Origin: Alphaproteobacteria bacterium
GTDB lineage: Bacteria > Pseudomonadota > Alphaproteobacteria > Micavibrionales > Micavibrionaceae
Length of the DNA: 64,000 bases
NCBI GenBank assembly: GCA_009995595.1
Contig: JAACPE010000001.1
Location: 806,001 to 870,000 of the forward strand
Direction: 5' to 3'
The notes under the pieces were generated by a model. That model was not told the origin of the DNA. It saw only the letters and a program-made list of their open reading frames with translations, and searched no databases. Positions 39,471-46,911 of the stretch are shown here, in pieces (within the stretch, counting starts at the first letter, position 1; each line of letters begins with the position of its first letter). Both the position numbers and the translations under genes were made by a program.

Positions 39471-42400
39471 TTATAGGCTACCTATTTGAGAGGCCACTTT
39501 ATCACGTGCGTCCATGGCAATATCCATATCATCTGCAGATGTTTGGTGCGCAATCACGCCAACACTGCCTTTTTTCTCAAAAAAGATGACCGATGATGAC
39601 ATTGAACTATTTGTACCAAGACACGCGAGTTCATACGTCGAATAGCCATTGCCTTGGCTTGCAGGAACTGAAGCAAAATCACCAGCGCAGCGGCTTTTTT
39701 GTTCGTTGATATAATTATTGGCAAACTGTGAGGCATTACCCACCTGCCCAGAATTGGCAACTTGCGCTACGCCAGAGAGTTCTGGCGTATTCCAGCGATA
39801 TTGATAAATCTCACCAGGTTGTTTTTCCATACGAATACTGCCTGCAGAAATCCCTGCACGCTGTAAAACATTTTGGATATCACTTTGGCCAATGCTTGGC
39901 GCAGGGATTTCCTGTGGTTTTGGCGCCTGAAGAACTTGTGTCGGCTGGGGTGCTGCCTCAGGCACAACTGCAGCCATACGAGCACCTGTTGGTTCTGGAA
40001 GATCAAGAGGTGTTGCTAAACGTCCCATATTTGCCGCAACGTCAGTTTCCGCCTTAGCCACGCGGCGTTCCTTTTGGGAGAGCGCGCGTTGCAAGCTTGC
40101 AATGTCTGTTCCTTTTTCTGCAAGTTCTTTTTCACGCGCAGCAAGTGATTGTTTAAGTGTGGCAATTTCTGCCTCTTTTTGAGCGACATCTTGCTGTGAG
40201 ACGATTGATTGGGAGCCACGAGAGGCAAGTTGCACGCTAAGCGCTGCTATCTCTTGATTTTTTTGAGCAGATTCAGCCGCAATTTCTTTCAAAAAATCTT
40301 CTTTGATTTTAAGAGAAGCCTGAAGGGCTGCAACTTCTTTTTGCTTTTGCTCCAGTGTTTCAGAGACCTGCTCTGTCCCTGATGATTTTTGTGAGACCGC
40401 AGTTTGTAGAGAACGAATTAGTGTATCTTGCTCAACAAGCTTTGAAGCCATTTGCTGATTTTTTTGTTGTTCCGTTTCAAGTGTCGACTTTAAAGTTGCT
40501 AATACTTGAGGTTCAACTTGAGGCGCAGACTCTTTCAAGGCTAAAGAGGATTTCAACTGGGCGATCTCAACATCTTGTTCAACAAGTTTAGACGCCATTT
40601 TCTGATTTTCTTGTTGTTCCGTTTCAAGAGTCGACTTTAAGGTCGCTAATACTTGAGGTTCAACTTGAGGCGCAGACTCTTTCAAAGCTAAAGAGGATTT
40701 CAACTGGGCGATCTCAACATCTTGTTCAACAAGTTTAGACGCCATAGTTTGCATCTTTGTTTTTTCTACAGCGAGTTCCGCTTCAACATTTGATAGCTTT
40801 ATTTCTTTTTCTTTTAAAGTAGCTTCAACCGGATTTTTTGCGTTTTGATTTGCTACAAGCTGAGATTGTAACAGTGATATCGCAGTATCTTGCTCAATCA
40901 GTTTTGCGGAAATTTGCGCTGATTTTGTTTTTTCAGCATTCAACTCTGATTGAGCCTTGGCTAGCTCCGTCGTTTTTTCGTTTAAGCTTTGTGCTAAAGG
41001 ATTGGCCTCATTAGCTTTAGCATTTAACTGTTCTTGAAGTGACGAAATTTTGGAATCTTGCTCCATGGTTTTAGCTGACAATTCCGCAAGCTTTTTCTTT
41101 TCAGCCTCAAGCTCTGATTGAGCCTTGGCTAGCTCTGTCGTTTTTTCGTTTAAGCTTTGCTTTAAAGGGTTGGCTTCATCCGCTTTAGCATTCAACTGTT
41201 CCTGTAACAGCGAGATTTTTAAGTCTTGCTCAATAGTCTTAGTGGATAACTGCGACAGCTTCTCTTTTTCGGCACTCAAGTTAGTTTGAAGCGTTAACAC
41301 TTCATTTTCTTTTGTTGCTAGAATTGGTTCAAGTGGATTGGCAGCTGATTTTAGTGTCTGAATTTCTGCTTGCGCTAATTGCAACTTATTTTGCACCTCA
41401 GACAAAGCAATCATGTCTTTCTTGAGTGTCTCAACTTCAGAGAGTTTTTCTTTTACTCGCGCTTCATAGTCGTCAGCTCTTTTTTTTTCTAAAATAAGAC
41501 GTTCATTAAGCTCTTTAACTTCTATTTCAAGCTCTGGCGAATTTGCCTTTTCTTGCGCTTCCTTCAGTTTATTCTCGAGCTCCATGAGACGTTCACGCTG
41601 ATTGTCCGAGGCAACAGCAGGATCAAAGAGCATACTTTCCAATTTCTTAACCTCTTGTGAATGACTTAAACGCTGTGCCTCAAGTTGAGCACCAAGGCGT
41701 TGAATTTCGCGTTGAGATTCATTAAAACGTTGCGTTACCTTTTGTAAGTTAAAGTCATTACCTGTTTCATTCAATAATGCATTTTCTTGCGTGACACGTA
41801 ATTCTTCTATCTCGGTTTTCAATCGTAAATTATCTGAAGTTGCGGCCTCTAACTGCGCTTCAAGCTCGCGCGCCTTTTGCATAGCTTGCGTTCCAATTTC
41901 AACTTTTGCACTATCAATAGCACCACGCGCTTGTTTTGCATCTTCAAAGAACTTTTTATTCTCGGCTTCTAACTCAGCGATACGCGCTTCAAACGCTGAA
42001 ATTTTTGCCATGCGCTCTTGCTCTTTAAGGGCATCTGCTTCCGACATTTTTTGAAGCTCGGCGTCTTTGGCTTTACTCATCTCTTCTTTAAGGGCTGCCA
42101 TTTCTTTTTCAAGTCGAGCGTTCGTCTCATTTGCCCTTTCAAGCTCTTCATTTGCTGCATCCATACCAGCACTGTCCGTATTGCTTTGCGCGCTGAGAGC
42201 TTGCTGCTCCAAAAATGAATTTTTTTCTTTCAGCACTTCAATCTGCATCATTAAATCAGCAATTTTAGGCTCCATATCCGATGTAGTAACAGATGGCATA
42301 ACAGGGCTTGGTGGCACTGCAACTTTTGCAGGGATCTCTTTTGCAACTTTCGCAGCTGGCTGAATCACCTTTGGCTCATCTTTAATGACAATAGGCTCAG

Positions 42401-43220
42401 GGGCCTCAATAGCCTTTACAGGCTCAGGCGCTGATTTTGATTTGAAATTGCCAACCGTTTCAATCTCATTAGCAACAGGCTCTTTAGCTTTGGGCGTTAC
42501 GACATTTTTAAGCGCTTGAGCGGCTTGCGCAAAAGGTGATGACGCTTTTTCTTCATTTTTTTCTTCGACTATTTCTTCAACTGTTTCTTCAACTGTTTCT
42601 TCAACTTTAGATTCGGTGTCATCGGAAAGTTTTTGTGCAGAAAAACCAGACAAACTCTCTGTCTTCTCGGCGCTCGCAACCACTGTATCATCGCCGCCTT
42701 TTAAAGCTTTCAAGCAAGCGTTCAAATCAGAATTACCACCTTCAAAGCCCGAGAGATCAAAGCTGTATTCTTTTCCATCCATTTCCACTTTAAGCGTATT
42801 GGATTTAGCCAGCGCTTTTAAAAAACTTTCATCCCATCCAAGGCGAACGACCATGGCCTGCTTAGAGGCAGGCATCATTTCATAAGCACGGATTTGTCCC
42901 GGCCCTGGTTGCAGCGTCAAGCTGTAGGCTTTATCAAGATCAAGAGTGTCATTTTGAAAATCAATTGCTAGAGAATACTCCTCTGCCATATTGCGGCCCA
43001 TTGTGAAAACAATGCCCTCGTTGTACTCACGAGCGAGGGTGCAATAAGGGTCACCGCTCCCCCCGTTTGCATTAATTTTTGTAATCGACCAATTTGTTTG
43101 CGGTTTTAAGGCAACGCCTGATTTATCCTGCGCTTTCACATGAGTTACGCTTGAAACACCGCCTAGCGTAATCGCAATTGTGAGAGCGAGAAGTGATGTT
43201 TTAACAATAGGCTGACGCAT
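39471..43220 (-). CDS. Exported giant coiled-coil protein with shared N-terminal two-cysteine domain
   Basis: 1249 residues. Signal peptide ending HVKA (about 30). Residues 45-170 form a beta-rich domain bounded by Cys60 and Cys169, similar in layout to the neighbour's N-terminus. Residues ~175-310 are Glu/Pro-rich. Residues ~320-1065 are almost continuous heptads with tandem repeats of 56 and 49 residues, ending in proline-rich segments. A C-terminal cap (~1105-1249; YQYRWNTPELSGVAQVAN, two more cysteines in SRCAGDF and ELACLG) ends in VASQIGSL. Predicted periplasmic rod; no known family for the whole. Transcribed after the TcpQ-like gene with a 101-bp gap. Confidence 0.8.
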   Translation of the reverse strand: MRQPIVKTSLLALTIAITLGGVSSVTHVKAQDKSGVALKPQTNWSITKINANGGSGDPYCTLAREYNEGIVFTMGRNMAEEYSLAIDFQNDTLDLDKAYSLTLQPGPGQIRAYEMMPASKQAMVVRLGWDESFLKALAKSNTLKVEMDGKEYSFDLSGFEGGNSDLNACLKALKGGDDTVVASAEKTESLSGFSAQKLSDDTESKVEETVEETVEEIVEEKNEEKASSPFAQAAQALKNVVTPKAKEPVANEIETVGNFKSKSAPEPVKAIEAPEPIVIKDEPKVIQPAAKVAKEIPAKVAVPPSPVMPSVTTSDMEPKIADLMMQIEVLKEKNSFLEQQALSAQSNTDSAGMDAANEELERANETNARLEKEMAALKEEMSKAKDAELQKMSEADALKEQERMAKISAFEARIAELEAENKKFFEDAKQARGAIDSAKVEIGTQAMQKARELEAQLEAATSDNLRLKTEIEELRVTQENALLNETGNDFNLQKVTQRFNESQREIQRLGAQLEAQRLSHSQEVKKLESMLFDPAVASDNQRERLMELENKLKEAQEKANSPELEIEVKELNERLILEKKRADDYEARVKEKLSEVETLKKDMIALSEVQNKLQLAQAEIQTLKSAANPLEPILATKENEVLTLQTNLSAEKEKLSQLSTKTIEQDLKISLLQEQLNAKADEANPLKQSLNEKTTELAKAQSELEAEKKKLAELSAKTMEQDSKISSLQEQLNAKANEANPLAQSLNEKTTELAKAQSELNAEKTKSAQISAKLIEQDTAISLLQSQLVANQNAKNPVEATLKEKEIKLSNVEAELAVEKTKMQTMASKLVEQDVEIAQLKSSLALKESAPQVEPQVLATLKSTLETEQQENQKMASKLVEQDVEIAQLKSSLALKESAPQVEPQVLATLKSTLETEQQKNQQMASKLVEQDTLIRSLQTAVSQKSSGTEQVSETLEQKQKEVAALQASLKIKEDFLKEIAAESAQKNQEIAALSVQLASRGSQSIVSQQDVAQKEAEIATLKQSLAAREKELAEKGTDIASLQRALSQKERRVAKAETDVAANMGRLATPLDLPEPTGARMAAVVPEAAPQPTQVLQAPKPQEIPAPSIGQSDIQNVLQRAGISAGSIRMEKQPGEIYQYRWNTPELSGVAQVANSGQVGNASQFANNYINEQKSRCAGDFASVPASQGNGYSTYELACLGTNSSMSSSVIFFEKKGSVGVIAHQTSADDMDIAMDARDKVASQIGSL
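40464..40745 (-). repeat. 147-bp tandem duplication inside the coiled-coil gene (7 heptads)
   Basis: Copy one 40464-40610 and copy two 40611-40745 differ at only a handful of positions. Both encode the MASKLVEQDVEIAQLKSSLA unit; 147 bp = 49 codons = 7 heptads, so the duplication keeps coiled-coil register. Confidence 0.9.
40933..41268 (-). repeat. 168-bp tandem repeat inside the coiled-coil gene (8 heptads)
   Basis: Copies 40933-41100 and 41101-41268 share long identical stretches (for example GATTGAGCCTTGGCTAGCTC at 40948 and 41116). 168 bp = 56 codons = 8 heptads. More diverged than the 147-bp repeat, hence older. Confidence 0.85.
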
Positions 43221-43321
43221 TGATCATTTTCCTTATAGTCTTATAAAATAAAATAAAATTAAGCATTTATTATTACGCGTGCCCAATAATGGTTGTGCCA
43301 TCGGGTCTTAATGTAACTTTA

Positions 43322-45001
43322 TTAGCCATTTCGATTAGAAAAGACAAATAATGTCTGACGGCCCGTTATTGGATCTTTATTTAATTGTGCTTGGGGGTAA
43401 ATTCCTTCCATCGCAAACTGTTCCAAAACGCTCTGAATGGCGGACTCATAAGACTGTGTATTATTAATACCACGTTTGAGTTCAAAATTTTGACCTGATT
43501 GCCAAACAAAATCAATGCCTGCCTGTTTTGACCAAAACTCTAGAACGCCTTGCAAGCTTGCCCCAGCGGGAGCGGACCACTTAAACGGCACGTAATCAAC
43601 ATCACGCGGCGGCATTACATCAGGAATAACAGGCGTAGGTGTGACTGGGTAAGCACCACGGGGCGCAGACACCATATCAGGAGAAACACGCGGCGCCATA
43701 TTTCCGGAAGAGAGGCGCGGCGATGCTAAAGGCTCAGGCGGCGACAATTGCGCTAGAGCTGCCGGCGCATTGGGGCTCATCATAGGAGCGCCAATTGGCA
43801 TAGGGGCAACAGGTATGGGAGCCATTCCAGCCATATCTGCACGAAGCCCTGTTGCGGCAGAATTTTGTGCAATCAACATCTGAACAGCTTCATTAAATGT
43901 GCCGCGATGTTCAAAATCACCCATAACTGGCGTTGGTTCACCCGCTTGCCATTGCACATCAACATTAGCGCGATCGCCCCAACGATTGATAACAGAAGCA
44001 ATGCTCTCTCCGTCTTTTGCAGACCAAACCATCTGCTCTGTCGCCATATCGATATTTTTAACTGGGAGTGAGTTGTCTTTTTGACCTGTCATGCTGCGGG
44101 GTTTGGTGTTTGCACGATTATCATGTGGCGCAGCTTTACTAATATTTGATGTTCTGTTGCGATCTCCCCATTCAGGATAGGTTTTCAATGGCTCTAAAGA
44201 CGCCATAGCTGCTGGCTCTGCAGGTTCAGGAACAGACCCACCAACTGGTAAAGGCACACTCGGCACTGAACCCGCCATAATTGGTGCAGGCGCAGGAACT
44301 GGCGCCGTTGTGAAAGGTGTTGGTGCAGCAGCCATCGGCGTGATTGGTGTCGGGGCGCCTGCTATCATCGGCTCAGGCACAGGCACAGGTGCAGGTGCAG
44401 GTGCAGGAGCTGGCGCCGTCATTGAAACCATCGGATCTGCAACGGGAAAAGCCGCCATCGGCGCGTCCATTGCTGGCGCAAAACATTGTTCCAAACGTGT
44501 CATGCCCTCTTCAATCCCAGAGAGCAAAAAGCGGAATGTATTTCCCTCAACGTCGATAATCAAAGGCGCATTTCGCGCAATACTTTTGTAAAATCCAGAT
44601 GAGTCTTTAATTTTAAAAAGAAGAATGCTCTCAGAAAAAGCCGTGCTATCAACGTTATATTGTCCGCCATCGGTCGTGATAAGAGCGTTATATTTTCTTC
44701 CTTGACGGAAAATTTCTTGACGAAAGTCAATCGCCATCGCCATGACCTGACCGCCACCACCAGAAATCCGAAGGGAGAACCCGTTATCAAATCCAGCCGT
44801 CATCACACAAGGAAGACGGATATCGTTAAACTTTGCTGCTTGCGATAAAGGGGTTTTTTGAACTTGCCATGGATCAACAATATTAAATGTCGGAATATCA
44901 ATCATCGCCCCTGCAGGCTGCGCTTTTGCTTCGATACCTATAAGGCAATAGCACCCTATTAAGGCCGTTATAATGAGTAGTTTTTTAGAAGAATGAAACA
45001 T
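43322..45001 (-). CDS. Exported protein with shared N-terminal domain and two TcpQ-like domains
   Basis: 559 residues. Signal peptide ending AKAQ (about 27). A domain bounded by Cys65 and Cys173 resembles the N-terminal domain of the neighbouring coiled-coil protein. Residues ~180-320 are Pro/Ala-rich with an APAP tract. Then two copies of a domain like the C-terminal TcpQ family: 326-379 (WSAKDGESIASVINRWGDRA, then VDVQWQ) and 475-556 (WSAPAGASLQGVLEFWSKQA, then IDFVWQ), separated by another proline-rich linker. TcpQ-like domains occur in type IV pilus and conjugation-secretion envelope proteins. No secretin or pilin gene is nearby, so the assembly partner is unknown. Confidence 0.78.
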   Translation of the reverse strand: MFHSSKKLLIITALIGCYCLIGIEAKAQPAGAMIDIPTFNIVDPWQVQKTPLSQAAKFNDIRLPCVMTAGFDNGFSLRISGGGGQVMAMAIDFRQEIFRQGRKYNALITTDGGQYNVDSTAFSESILLFKIKDSSGFYKSIARNAPLIIDVEGNTFRFLLSGIEEGMTRLEQCFAPAMDAPMAAFPVADPMVSMTAPAPAPAPAPVPVPEPMIAGAPTPITPMAAAPTPFTTAPVPAPAPIMAGSVPSVPLPVGGSVPEPAEPAAMASLEPLKTYPEWGDRNRTSNISKAAPHDNRANTKPRSMTGQKDNSLPVKNIDMATEQMVWSAKDGESIASVINRWGDRANVDVQWQAGEPTPVMGDFEHRGTFNEAVQMLIAQNSAATGLRADMAGMAPIPVAPMPIGAPMMSPNAPAALAQLSPPEPLASPRLSSGNMAPRVSPDMVSAPRGAYPVTPTPVIPDVMPPRDVDYVPFKWSAPAGASLQGVLEFWSKQAGIDFVWQSGQNFELKRGINNTQSYESAIQSVLEQFAMEGIYPQAQLNKDPITGRQTLFVFSNRNG

Positions 45002-45204: not shown

Positions 45205-46318
45205 TTACGCATCGTTTTTCTTATCTAAACGCTGTGCTAGAGCCCCTTCAAGGAATCGGTCGATATCCCCGTCCAAAACGGCATATGAGTCCGTATTTTC
45301 AATAGCAGTGCGTTGATCTTTGACCATTTGATAAGGATGTAAAACATAGGAGCGAATCTGGTGTCCCCACCCTATCTCACTCTTTTCACCATGCGCGGCA
45401 GAGGCATCATCTTCTCGCTTTTGGATTTCACGCTCATATAAACGGGCTTTGAGCATATCCAGAGCCTCTGCTTTGTTCTTGTGCTGGGACCGTCCGCTTT
45501 GGCATGATACAACGATATTTGTCGGAATGTGCGTTATCCGTACGGCACTATCAGTCGTATTGACGTGCTGTCCTCCCGCGCCGCTCGAACGGTACGTATC
45601 AATACGCAGGTCTTTCTCCTCAATTTCGATATCAATACTATCATCAATAACTGGCGCAACCGAAACAGAGGCGAAACTAGTATGACGGCGCGCGCTTGAA
45701 TCATAAGGTGAAATACGAACAAGGCGATGGACACCATTTTCTGTTTTAAGCCAGCCATAGGCCATTTCACCATGAATACGTATCGTAGCGGATTTTATAC
45801 CTGCTTCTTCTCCATCACTCCGATTGAGGAGAGAAACCTTAAAATCGCGCCGATCCGCCCACCGCGAATACATACGCAATAACATCTCGGCCCAATCTTG
45901 AGATTCGGTTCCGCCTGCGCCTGAATTAATCTCTAAATAGGCATCATTGGGGTCAGCTTCACCAGACAACAAACTCTCAAGTTGCAGTTTTTCGGCCTCG
46001 ATCTTCATAGCACTTAAAGACTTTTCAGCCTCAATCACTATGTCCTCATCCCCTTCGGAATCGGCAAGCTCAATAAGATCAATCGCATCGGCGACGTTAG
46101 TTTCAATTATTTTTACGGCAGATATTTGCGCCTCTAGACGATTGCGCTCACGCATAATTTTTTGCGCTGTCTCTGTATCAGACCATAAATCAGGATCTTC
46201 GGCTTGGGCATTGAGCTGGGACAGCTTTTCTAATGCTGCGTCCCAGTCAAAGATGCCTCCTCAGCAGTGATAAAGCACTTTGTATATCTTTTATGACTGC
46301 TTCGGTTTCGGCTTTCAT
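45205..46318 (-). CDS. prfB: Peptide chain release factor 2, with programmed +1 frameshift
   Basis: 370 residues when the frameshift at 46249 is taken. Frame one runs from the ATG at 46318 for 23 codons ([20 protein letters not shown] then RHL) to an in-frame TGA; skipping its T continues as [20 protein letters not shown] to the stop at 45205. Recognises UGA and UAA. GGQ loop in [20 protein letters not shown]; the codon-reading tripeptide region is [18 protein letters not shown] (SPY instead of SPF, frequent in relatives). Reading without the shift gives a truncated N-terminal peptide, as in the autoregulated E. coli gene. Confidence 0.96.
46246..46261 (-). promoter_or_regulatory. prfB recoding site (SD-like stimulator plus CUUUGAC)
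   Basis: On the minus strand AGGAGG (46261-46256) is followed after 3 nt by CTT-TGA-C (46252-46246), the exact arrangement of the RF2 autoregulatory frameshift site. Confidence 0.96.
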
Positions 46319-46341
46319 CTTACTATAATACAAGAGGGCTA

Positions 46342-46911
46342 TTAGGCGGCTTCTTGGTCCATCATCATATTATTTGTGAACACATCCTGCATCATTTCAA
46401 TGAACATATCCATATTGTCCAAATCCGCAATACCCGTCAGCATTGCATTATCAATCATCATTGGCTCTTCTGACCACTTTGCGCCCATTTTTATGGCTTC
46501 ATCACGCATAGCAACAGGGCCCGCAACGGTACGGCCATCAATTTGCTCACTCATAATCATTAAAGAAAGCGCATCCCCCATAACAGCAACAGGCTTATGC
46601 GCCGCCATAAAGCTACCGATAAAGCGTTTTGTGTGCGCTGTAGATTTTAGCTTTTCAATGCTGCGCTGCCCGCCTGGGATCAAAAGACCCGCATAATCAA
46701 CACCCAGTGCTGTATTTAATGACGCATCAACAGCGAAATTGTGCCCCCATGCTTGACCTTCCCAGCCATTAACCAGACCTTGATTTGTGCTGATAATTTT
46801 GAGCGTGGCGCCCATCTCAATAAAGCTACGTTGTGCTTTAATAAATTGTTTTTCTTCGAAACCGTTTGCAACCAACGCTGCGACTTTCATGCCAAGCATA
46901 GCTTTTGTCAT
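46342..46911 (-). CDS. DJ-1/PfpI-like protein lacking the catalytic cysteine
   Basis: 189 residues. Flavodoxin-like fold with MKVAALVANGFEEKQFIKAQ, the conserved Glu19, then LLIPGGQRSIEKLK. Where active members have the nucleophile elbow A-x-C-H/N-G, this has VAVMGDALSL, with Met111 in the cysteine position; the protein has no cysteine at all. It is therefore probably not a protease, chaperone-glyoxalase or amidotransferase of the usual kind, but a binding or scaffold protein. Monocistronic, 30 bp upstream of prfB on the same strand. Confidence 0.8.
   Translation of the reverse strand: MTKAMLGMKVAALVANGFEEKQFIKAQRSFIEMGATLKIISTNQGLVNGWEGQAWGHNFAVDASLNTALGVDYAGLLIPGGQRSIEKLKSTAHTKRFIGSFMAAHKPVAVMGDALSLMIMSEQIDGRTVAGPVAMRDEAIKMGAKWSEEPMMIDNAMLTGIADLDNMDMFIEMMQDVFTNNMMMDQEAA

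Follow-up and report, generated by a model that had tools for sequence, protein, structure and literature searches.

TcpQ is required both for the stability of the secretin TcpC and for its location in the outer membrane (PMC4971541), and the genes of its family (PF10671: TcpQ, BfpG and LngC) accompany that of a type IVb pilus secretin. Proteins with a domain like that of IalB, the invasion associated protein B of Bartonella henselae (PF06776; structure 3DTD), are common in Alphaproteobacteria, and at least one of them, RgsG of Sinorhizobium, is essential, acting in the periplasm at the growing pole (PMC7327166). Here we describe a pair of adjacent genes, P2 and P1, which appears to tie an IalB-type domain, TcpQ domains and a long coiled coil together, and thus gives a specific system in which the binding partners of IalB-type domains can be sought. 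The pair lies in a 64,000-nucleotide stretch of DNA (the window; positions 806,001 to 870,000 of contig JAACPE010000001.1, assembly GCA_009995595.1) from a member of the Micavibrionaceae, order Micavibrionales, with a genome of 1.99 Mb that is an estimated 99.97% complete.

As judged by open reading frames and their translations, P2 (43322..45001, 559 aa) lies upstream and is followed after 101 bp by P1 (39471..43220, 1249 aa), both on the minus strand; no terminator-like site was found in the 101-bp gap. Both products begin with a signal peptide, followed by a shared N-terminal domain (ND). In P1 the ND leads into a coiled-coil rod and a C-terminal cap, and in P2 into a proline-rich linker, a TcpQ domain, a further linker and a second TcpQ domain. 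P2 thus resembles TcpQ proteins in its TcpQ domains, but it adds an IalB-type head, has two TcpQ copies and has no pilus operon alongside. The ND is like IalB and RgsG in its predicted fold, its sequence profile and in being a small exported β-domain with cysteines, although canonical IalB stands alone and has extra cysteines whereas the ND heads larger multi-domain proteins. What is new here is how parts of known kinds are combined; the combination has been retained across an order to which predators belong.

The domain shared by P1 and P2 is best seen as a divergent member of the IalB superfamily

An earlier note on this DNA, made from the letters and predicted reading frames, had proposed that the two products share a two-cysteine domain, and the features that it listed are all in place. 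The P1 ND spans residues 44–170 (42711..43091, minus strand) with Cys60 and Cys169, and the P2 ND residues 60–174 (44480..44824, minus strand) with Cys65 and Cys173; an AIDF motif is present at position 85 of P1 and 90 of P2, a later motif reads DGKEYSFDLSG at 148 of P1 and EGNTFRFLLSG at 152 of P2, and the final L-x-x-C is LNAC at 166 and LEQC at 170, respectively. When the genome itself was searched, P2 alone matched the P1 domain, at E 2.5e-5, and the P1 domain matched P2 at E 8.5e-6. Iterated hidden Markov models (HMMs) seeded from either ND gathered both families, and comparison of the two family profiles with hhalign gave a probability of 99.6% (E 8.5e-25, 130 columns). The similarity between the two NDs is therefore confirmed as statistically firm and not due to chance, with one Trp and two Cys invariant in both families. 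Sequence identity between the P1 and P2 NDs is 15–23%. In a tree of 94 ND domains, the P1 clade (support 100/95) stands apart from the P2-type clade (98/91) and each of them spans several families, which argues that the two NDs are old paralogs and not the product of a recent copying event.

The note had taken the pair for a candidate undescribed envelope module; by its predicted fold and profile, the shared domain is not of an undescribed kind. Searches of Pfam, PHROGs and PDB sequences with the ND found no family, and no ND member reached the Pfam gathering cut-off for IalB, the best being one of 44 at E 0.0025; likewise, when 55 genomes were searched for the IalB family, neither the P1 nor the P2 locus of this genome was among the matches listed. 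The AlphaFold model of the P1 ND, built from an alignment that included P2 rows, has a mean predicted local distance difference test score (pLDDT) of 92.6 and a predicted template modelling score (pTM) of 0.83. A Foldseek search with this model returned only two PDB matches with E below 0.001, and both were chains of 3DTD, at template modelling (TM) scores of 0.65 (E 6.2e-4) and 0.62. We then compared all 94 NDs with IalB profiles made from the same order, and hhalign matched the whole domain (95%, E 4e-8, 118 columns), while eight column-shuffled control profiles and the profiles of the cap and of TcpQ scored 0.5% or less. A narrower-alignment comparison made earlier had been weak (61%, over half of the domain), and the match became firm once the alignments were widened. 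On the grounds of the modelled fold match to 3DTD and the whole-domain profile match, the ND is best classed as a diverged member of the IalB superfamily. A part in the invasion of host cells would not be expected to extend to it. The next meaningful fold match, to the N-terminal domain of MotY (2ZF8; LPHT ring, 8Z5N), is weaker (TM 0.54, E 0.05–0.3) and serves as a lead only; unlike MotY, P1 and P2 have no peptidoglycan-binding OmpA domain.

We also observed that many Micavibrionales genomes encode, beside canonical four-cysteine IalB, a second and very uniform IalB-like family of ~175 aa with two cysteines (L124, L126, L128, L132 and similar loci).

The pair is conserved across three families of the order

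The earlier note had suggested that adjacency be scored in other genomes. A search for related loci with a narrow alignment found 11 close loci. In 31 of 33 loci, from families f1, f2 and f7 of the order, P1 has a TcpQ gene directly upstream in the same orientation. Spacing could be measured in 30 of these (-8 to 195 bp), the remaining one being L066, whose P1 is broken by an assembly gap. Since the arrangement recurs across three families, the gene order argues that the P2–P1 pair is a genuine, vertically inherited module, and we picture it as a two-gene envelope module of Micavibrionales whose products would be made together and act together in the periplasm.

The genes are not strictly inseparable, and the note had held that relatives of each occurring without the other would speak against a module. 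The 31 loci keep the pair; however, P1 stands without an adjacent P2 in two genomes (G019 and G022), and ND-cap proteins without TcpQ occur in other families of the order and in other Alphaproteobacteria. In families f3 and f5, such ND-cap proteins are often encoded in tandem. A sample of the class yielded the ND in 23 of 286 genomes, besides the genome of the window and two others of its family, and in a phylum-wide sample every ND match again came from Alphaproteobacteria. Among 21 ND proteins from outside the order that we read, 13 also have the cap and none has TcpQ. The ND-cap proteins from outside the order are mostly 300–470 aa long, with linkers of 14–57 aa and, in one case, 197; their genes share no common neighbourhood in other Alphaproteobacteria. 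They are like P1 in the order of signal peptide, ND and cap, but have a short linker without coiled coil and no TcpQ neighbour.

The same distribution bears on the idea, raised in the note, that P1 and P2 bind through the shared domain, either to each other or to a partner in common. The presence of homologous NDs in adjacent genes speaks for such docking. However, the adjacent TcpQ proteins, which have one or two TcpQ domains each, lack an ND in 9 of 30 cases, and so docking through a shared ND cannot generally hold the pair together; the NDs are, moreover, very diverged, P1 occurs without P2 in the two genomes mentioned above, and ND proteins elsewhere have no such partner. We consider this explanation unlikely. 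The ND may rather be a binding domain that helps to seat the proteins in the envelope, without being an obligatory link between P1 and P2.

Some f1 genomes encode a third ND protein (ND3, 517–697 aa) at a separate locus (L184–L190, L074, L075). ND3 shares a rod motif with P1 (...NWNLExATMRYNEAERQ...LExMLFDP) and has neither cap nor TcpQ. That ND3 compensates for the ND-less partners was considered and rejected: the two coincide in only 4 of the 9 ND-less genomes (G010, G015, G016 and G020), and G034 has both. In f3 and f5, the ND-cap genes in tandem face two others, one for a response regulator and one for a conserved protein of 171–179 aa without a Pfam match (L093, L094, L101).

The rod of P1 would be a jointed chain and not a strut

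The note had described P1 as a rod of ~745 residues with a cap. The rod (40013..42266, minus strand, approximately residues 319–1069) consists of proline-jointed segments and accounts for 755 residues by a crude coiled-coil count, in fair agreement with that description, and a conserved C-terminal domain follows it. Tandem Repeats Finder located two repeats within the rod on the minus strand: one of 147 bp (40425..40745; 49 aa or 7 heptads, 2.2 copies, 94% match) and one of 168 bp (40930..41242; 56 aa or 8 heptads, 1.9 copies, 83% match). Prolines are found at 534, 562, 629/632, 685, 741, 797, 851/855 and 900/904, and those from 629/632 onwards mark the repeat joints. The distance from ND to cap is 943 residues in this P1 and 425–1302 in the P1 orthologs of the TcpQ-paired families. 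We propose that P1 goes back to an ND-cap protein of the compact kind seen in other Alphaproteobacteria, and that its linker, once short, has lengthened into an extended, jointed coiled coil, with in-frame duplications of heptad multiples in the present genome. P1 would thus document a route from a compact envelope protein to a giant rod by repeat duplication in heptad register.

An α-helix rises by 0.15 nm per residue, so a straight rod of ~745 residues would measure ~110 nm, which is several times the usual width of the periplasm. A rigid strut standing perpendicular to the membranes is for this reason unlikely, and the rod straight across the periplasm that the note had envisaged is a poor fit to this length, to the length variation among orthologs and to the prolines at the repeat joints. 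A jointed chain that lies within or along the periplasm appears to fit better. A straight rod longer than 100 nm could alternatively be a fibre on the cell surface, with both proteins crossing the outer membrane and the rod helping to attach the cell to prey, since relatives such as Micavibrio, as studied in culture, are epibiotic predators of bacteria (PMC3189940). We consider this very unlikely: no outer-membrane anchor, sorting signal or exporter was seen, the folds of cap and ND are known from periplasmic proteins, and ND-cap proteins are also present in large-genome Alphaproteobacteria of other families.

The cap itself (39489..39881, minus strand, residues 1114–1244, delimited with a cap HMM) lies within the C-terminal 140 residues of P1, which are conserved and include two further cysteines, Cys1178 and Cys1200; the AlphaFold model has a pLDDT of 93.4. 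Foldseek matched it to the fold of PsbP, DcrB and the EagT6/SciW chaperones (E 1.4e-4 to 1e-3, TM 0.43–0.56), while Pfam, PHROGs and PDB searches gave no sequence match to any named family. The model thus places the cap in the same fold class as the DcrB/PsbP/DUF1795 proteins (6E8A, 2XB3 and EagT6 6XRF; E ~1e-4, TM ~0.5), which is not membership in a family, as the likeness does not extend to sequence.

The variable linker also suits another explanation, in which P1 and P2 form a periplasmic scaffold or spacer that stands by itself and serves cell shape, the pole or the integrity of the envelope; it would be unconnected with any pilus or secretion ring, and TcpQ would bind something else. Linker length varies freely, as it would in a spacer, the only partners kept at the locus are each other, and f3 and f5 have ND-cap proteins without TcpQ. 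In Sinorhizobium, RgsG and the coiled-coil protein RgsE both act at the growing pole (PMC7327166), and the essential, polar nature of RgsG keeps the scaffold explanation alive. The GPR/RgsE polar proteins, which are likewise alphaproteobacterial proteins of the envelope or pole, resemble P1 in the great length of their coiled coil (PMC7327166), a comparison in kind only, as no common domain was seen. Two points weigh against a scaffold of this sort: 31 of 33 loci have retained TcpQ domains, and the role known for TcpQ proteins is to serve secretins; on balance we regard it as rather unlikely, though a serious competitor.

P2 may be an adaptor for a ring encoded elsewhere

The two TcpQ-like domains that the note had ascribed to P2 are well supported. 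P2 matches PF10671 at E 2.4e-21, with 76 bits against a cut-off of 27, and the two copies, at residues 326–384 (43850..44026) and 474–553 (43343..43582), both on the minus strand, each lie above the cut-off as well (42.8 and 42.4 bits). The second was also matched by phmmer to a lipoprotein, PDB 9u5s, at E 8.5e-5. P2 itself has a lipobox-like string, LIGC, in its signal peptide; it is not kept in relatives, so lipidation is unlikely as a family trait and we rejected P2 as a lipoprotein.

Given that genes of the TcpQ family accompany that of a type IVb pilus secretin, it bears on P2 that no secretin or pilus gene is found among its annotated neighbours, and the note was right that no pilus or secretion genes are linked to the pair at this locus. 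Candidate rings are encoded elsewhere in the genome. There are three secretins (C7:11710, C1:432334 and C1:85612) and a DotB/DotC/DotD set of the type IVb secretion system (T4BSS) type near the flagellar gene flgK (L214 7018–13537; G000 C6, ~82500–89000). The genome paper on Micavibrio aeruginosavorus reported no type IV secretion system (PMC3189940). All 58 relatives have secretins, and 54 of the 58 have DotC. No linkage evidence favours any of the candidate rings.

We tentatively read the pair as a periplasmic tether plus ring adaptor, the ring being encoded elsewhere (a secretin or DotC/DotD), and give this reading a little less than an even chance. P1 would serve as a tether or scaffold that can flex, bears a binding domain at either end and runs along the periplasm or folds up inside it, and P2 as an adaptor whose TcpQ domains may attach to an outer-membrane ring or stabilise it, in the way that TcpQ acts on the TcpC secretin. 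Several observations weigh against it. P1 lacks an adjacent P2 in G019 and G022, and the ND-cap proteins without TcpQ in f3 and f5 mean that a ring role cannot be general; no locus that we read has a partner ring adjoining the pair; given how widespread secretins and DotC are, their co-occurrence with the pair is no test of a link; and the coiled-coil count is crude and the rod topology inferred. A bolder form, in which Micavibrionales carry a dedicated adaptor, a stretched IalB-type rod (425–1300 residues) with a TcpQ protein, that positions or braces a ring (a secretin or one of the Dot type) serving predation, seems improbable to us; if true, it would give IalB-type domains a first structural role.

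A narrower version would have P2 give TcpQ function specifically to the DotB/DotC/DotD machine. Other TcpQ proteins of relatives adjoin DotC/DotD/DotB or a PilN-type secretin, and in the present genome, which has DotC, Pfam-detectable TcpQ is found only in P2. However, the ortholog at the Dot site here ends in an STN-like (N0) domain, so that the domain has diverged and is not missing, and f2 and f7 have both a two-TcpQ P2 and a T4BSS-linked TcpQ protein, which speaks against an exchange. On the same evidence we rejected the extra TcpQ of P2 as a replacement for a TcpQ lost from the Dot locus, and a role specific to the Dot machine is, in our view, unlikely.

Among the candidate rings, the third secretin belongs to a type IV pilus-like cluster with a prepilin peptidase, a T2SSE ATPase and T2SSF (L204 7148–15400; G000 C1, ~83600–91900), and the same cluster holds a 568-aa protein with ASPM-SPD-2-Hydin/HYDIN-type Ig domains. 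In family f7 (L211 3510–16573; G043), genes of a type IVb pilus, for its secretin, PilO and TcpQ protein, directly adjoin DotB/DotC/DotD in a hybrid arrangement.

Genes flanking the pair

The pair is flanked by prfB and by genes for a DJ-1 protein, an OmpA-type lipoprotein, a 480-aa membrane protein and AsmA, and in relatives also by PHB genes. These flanks look like plain synteny, and we rejected reading a function for the pair from them. The prfB gene contains a classic programmed +1 frameshift site (46080–46345, minus strand; AGGAGGCATCTTTGAC), and the 316-aa open reading frame at 45205–46155 is the post-shift part of prfB only.

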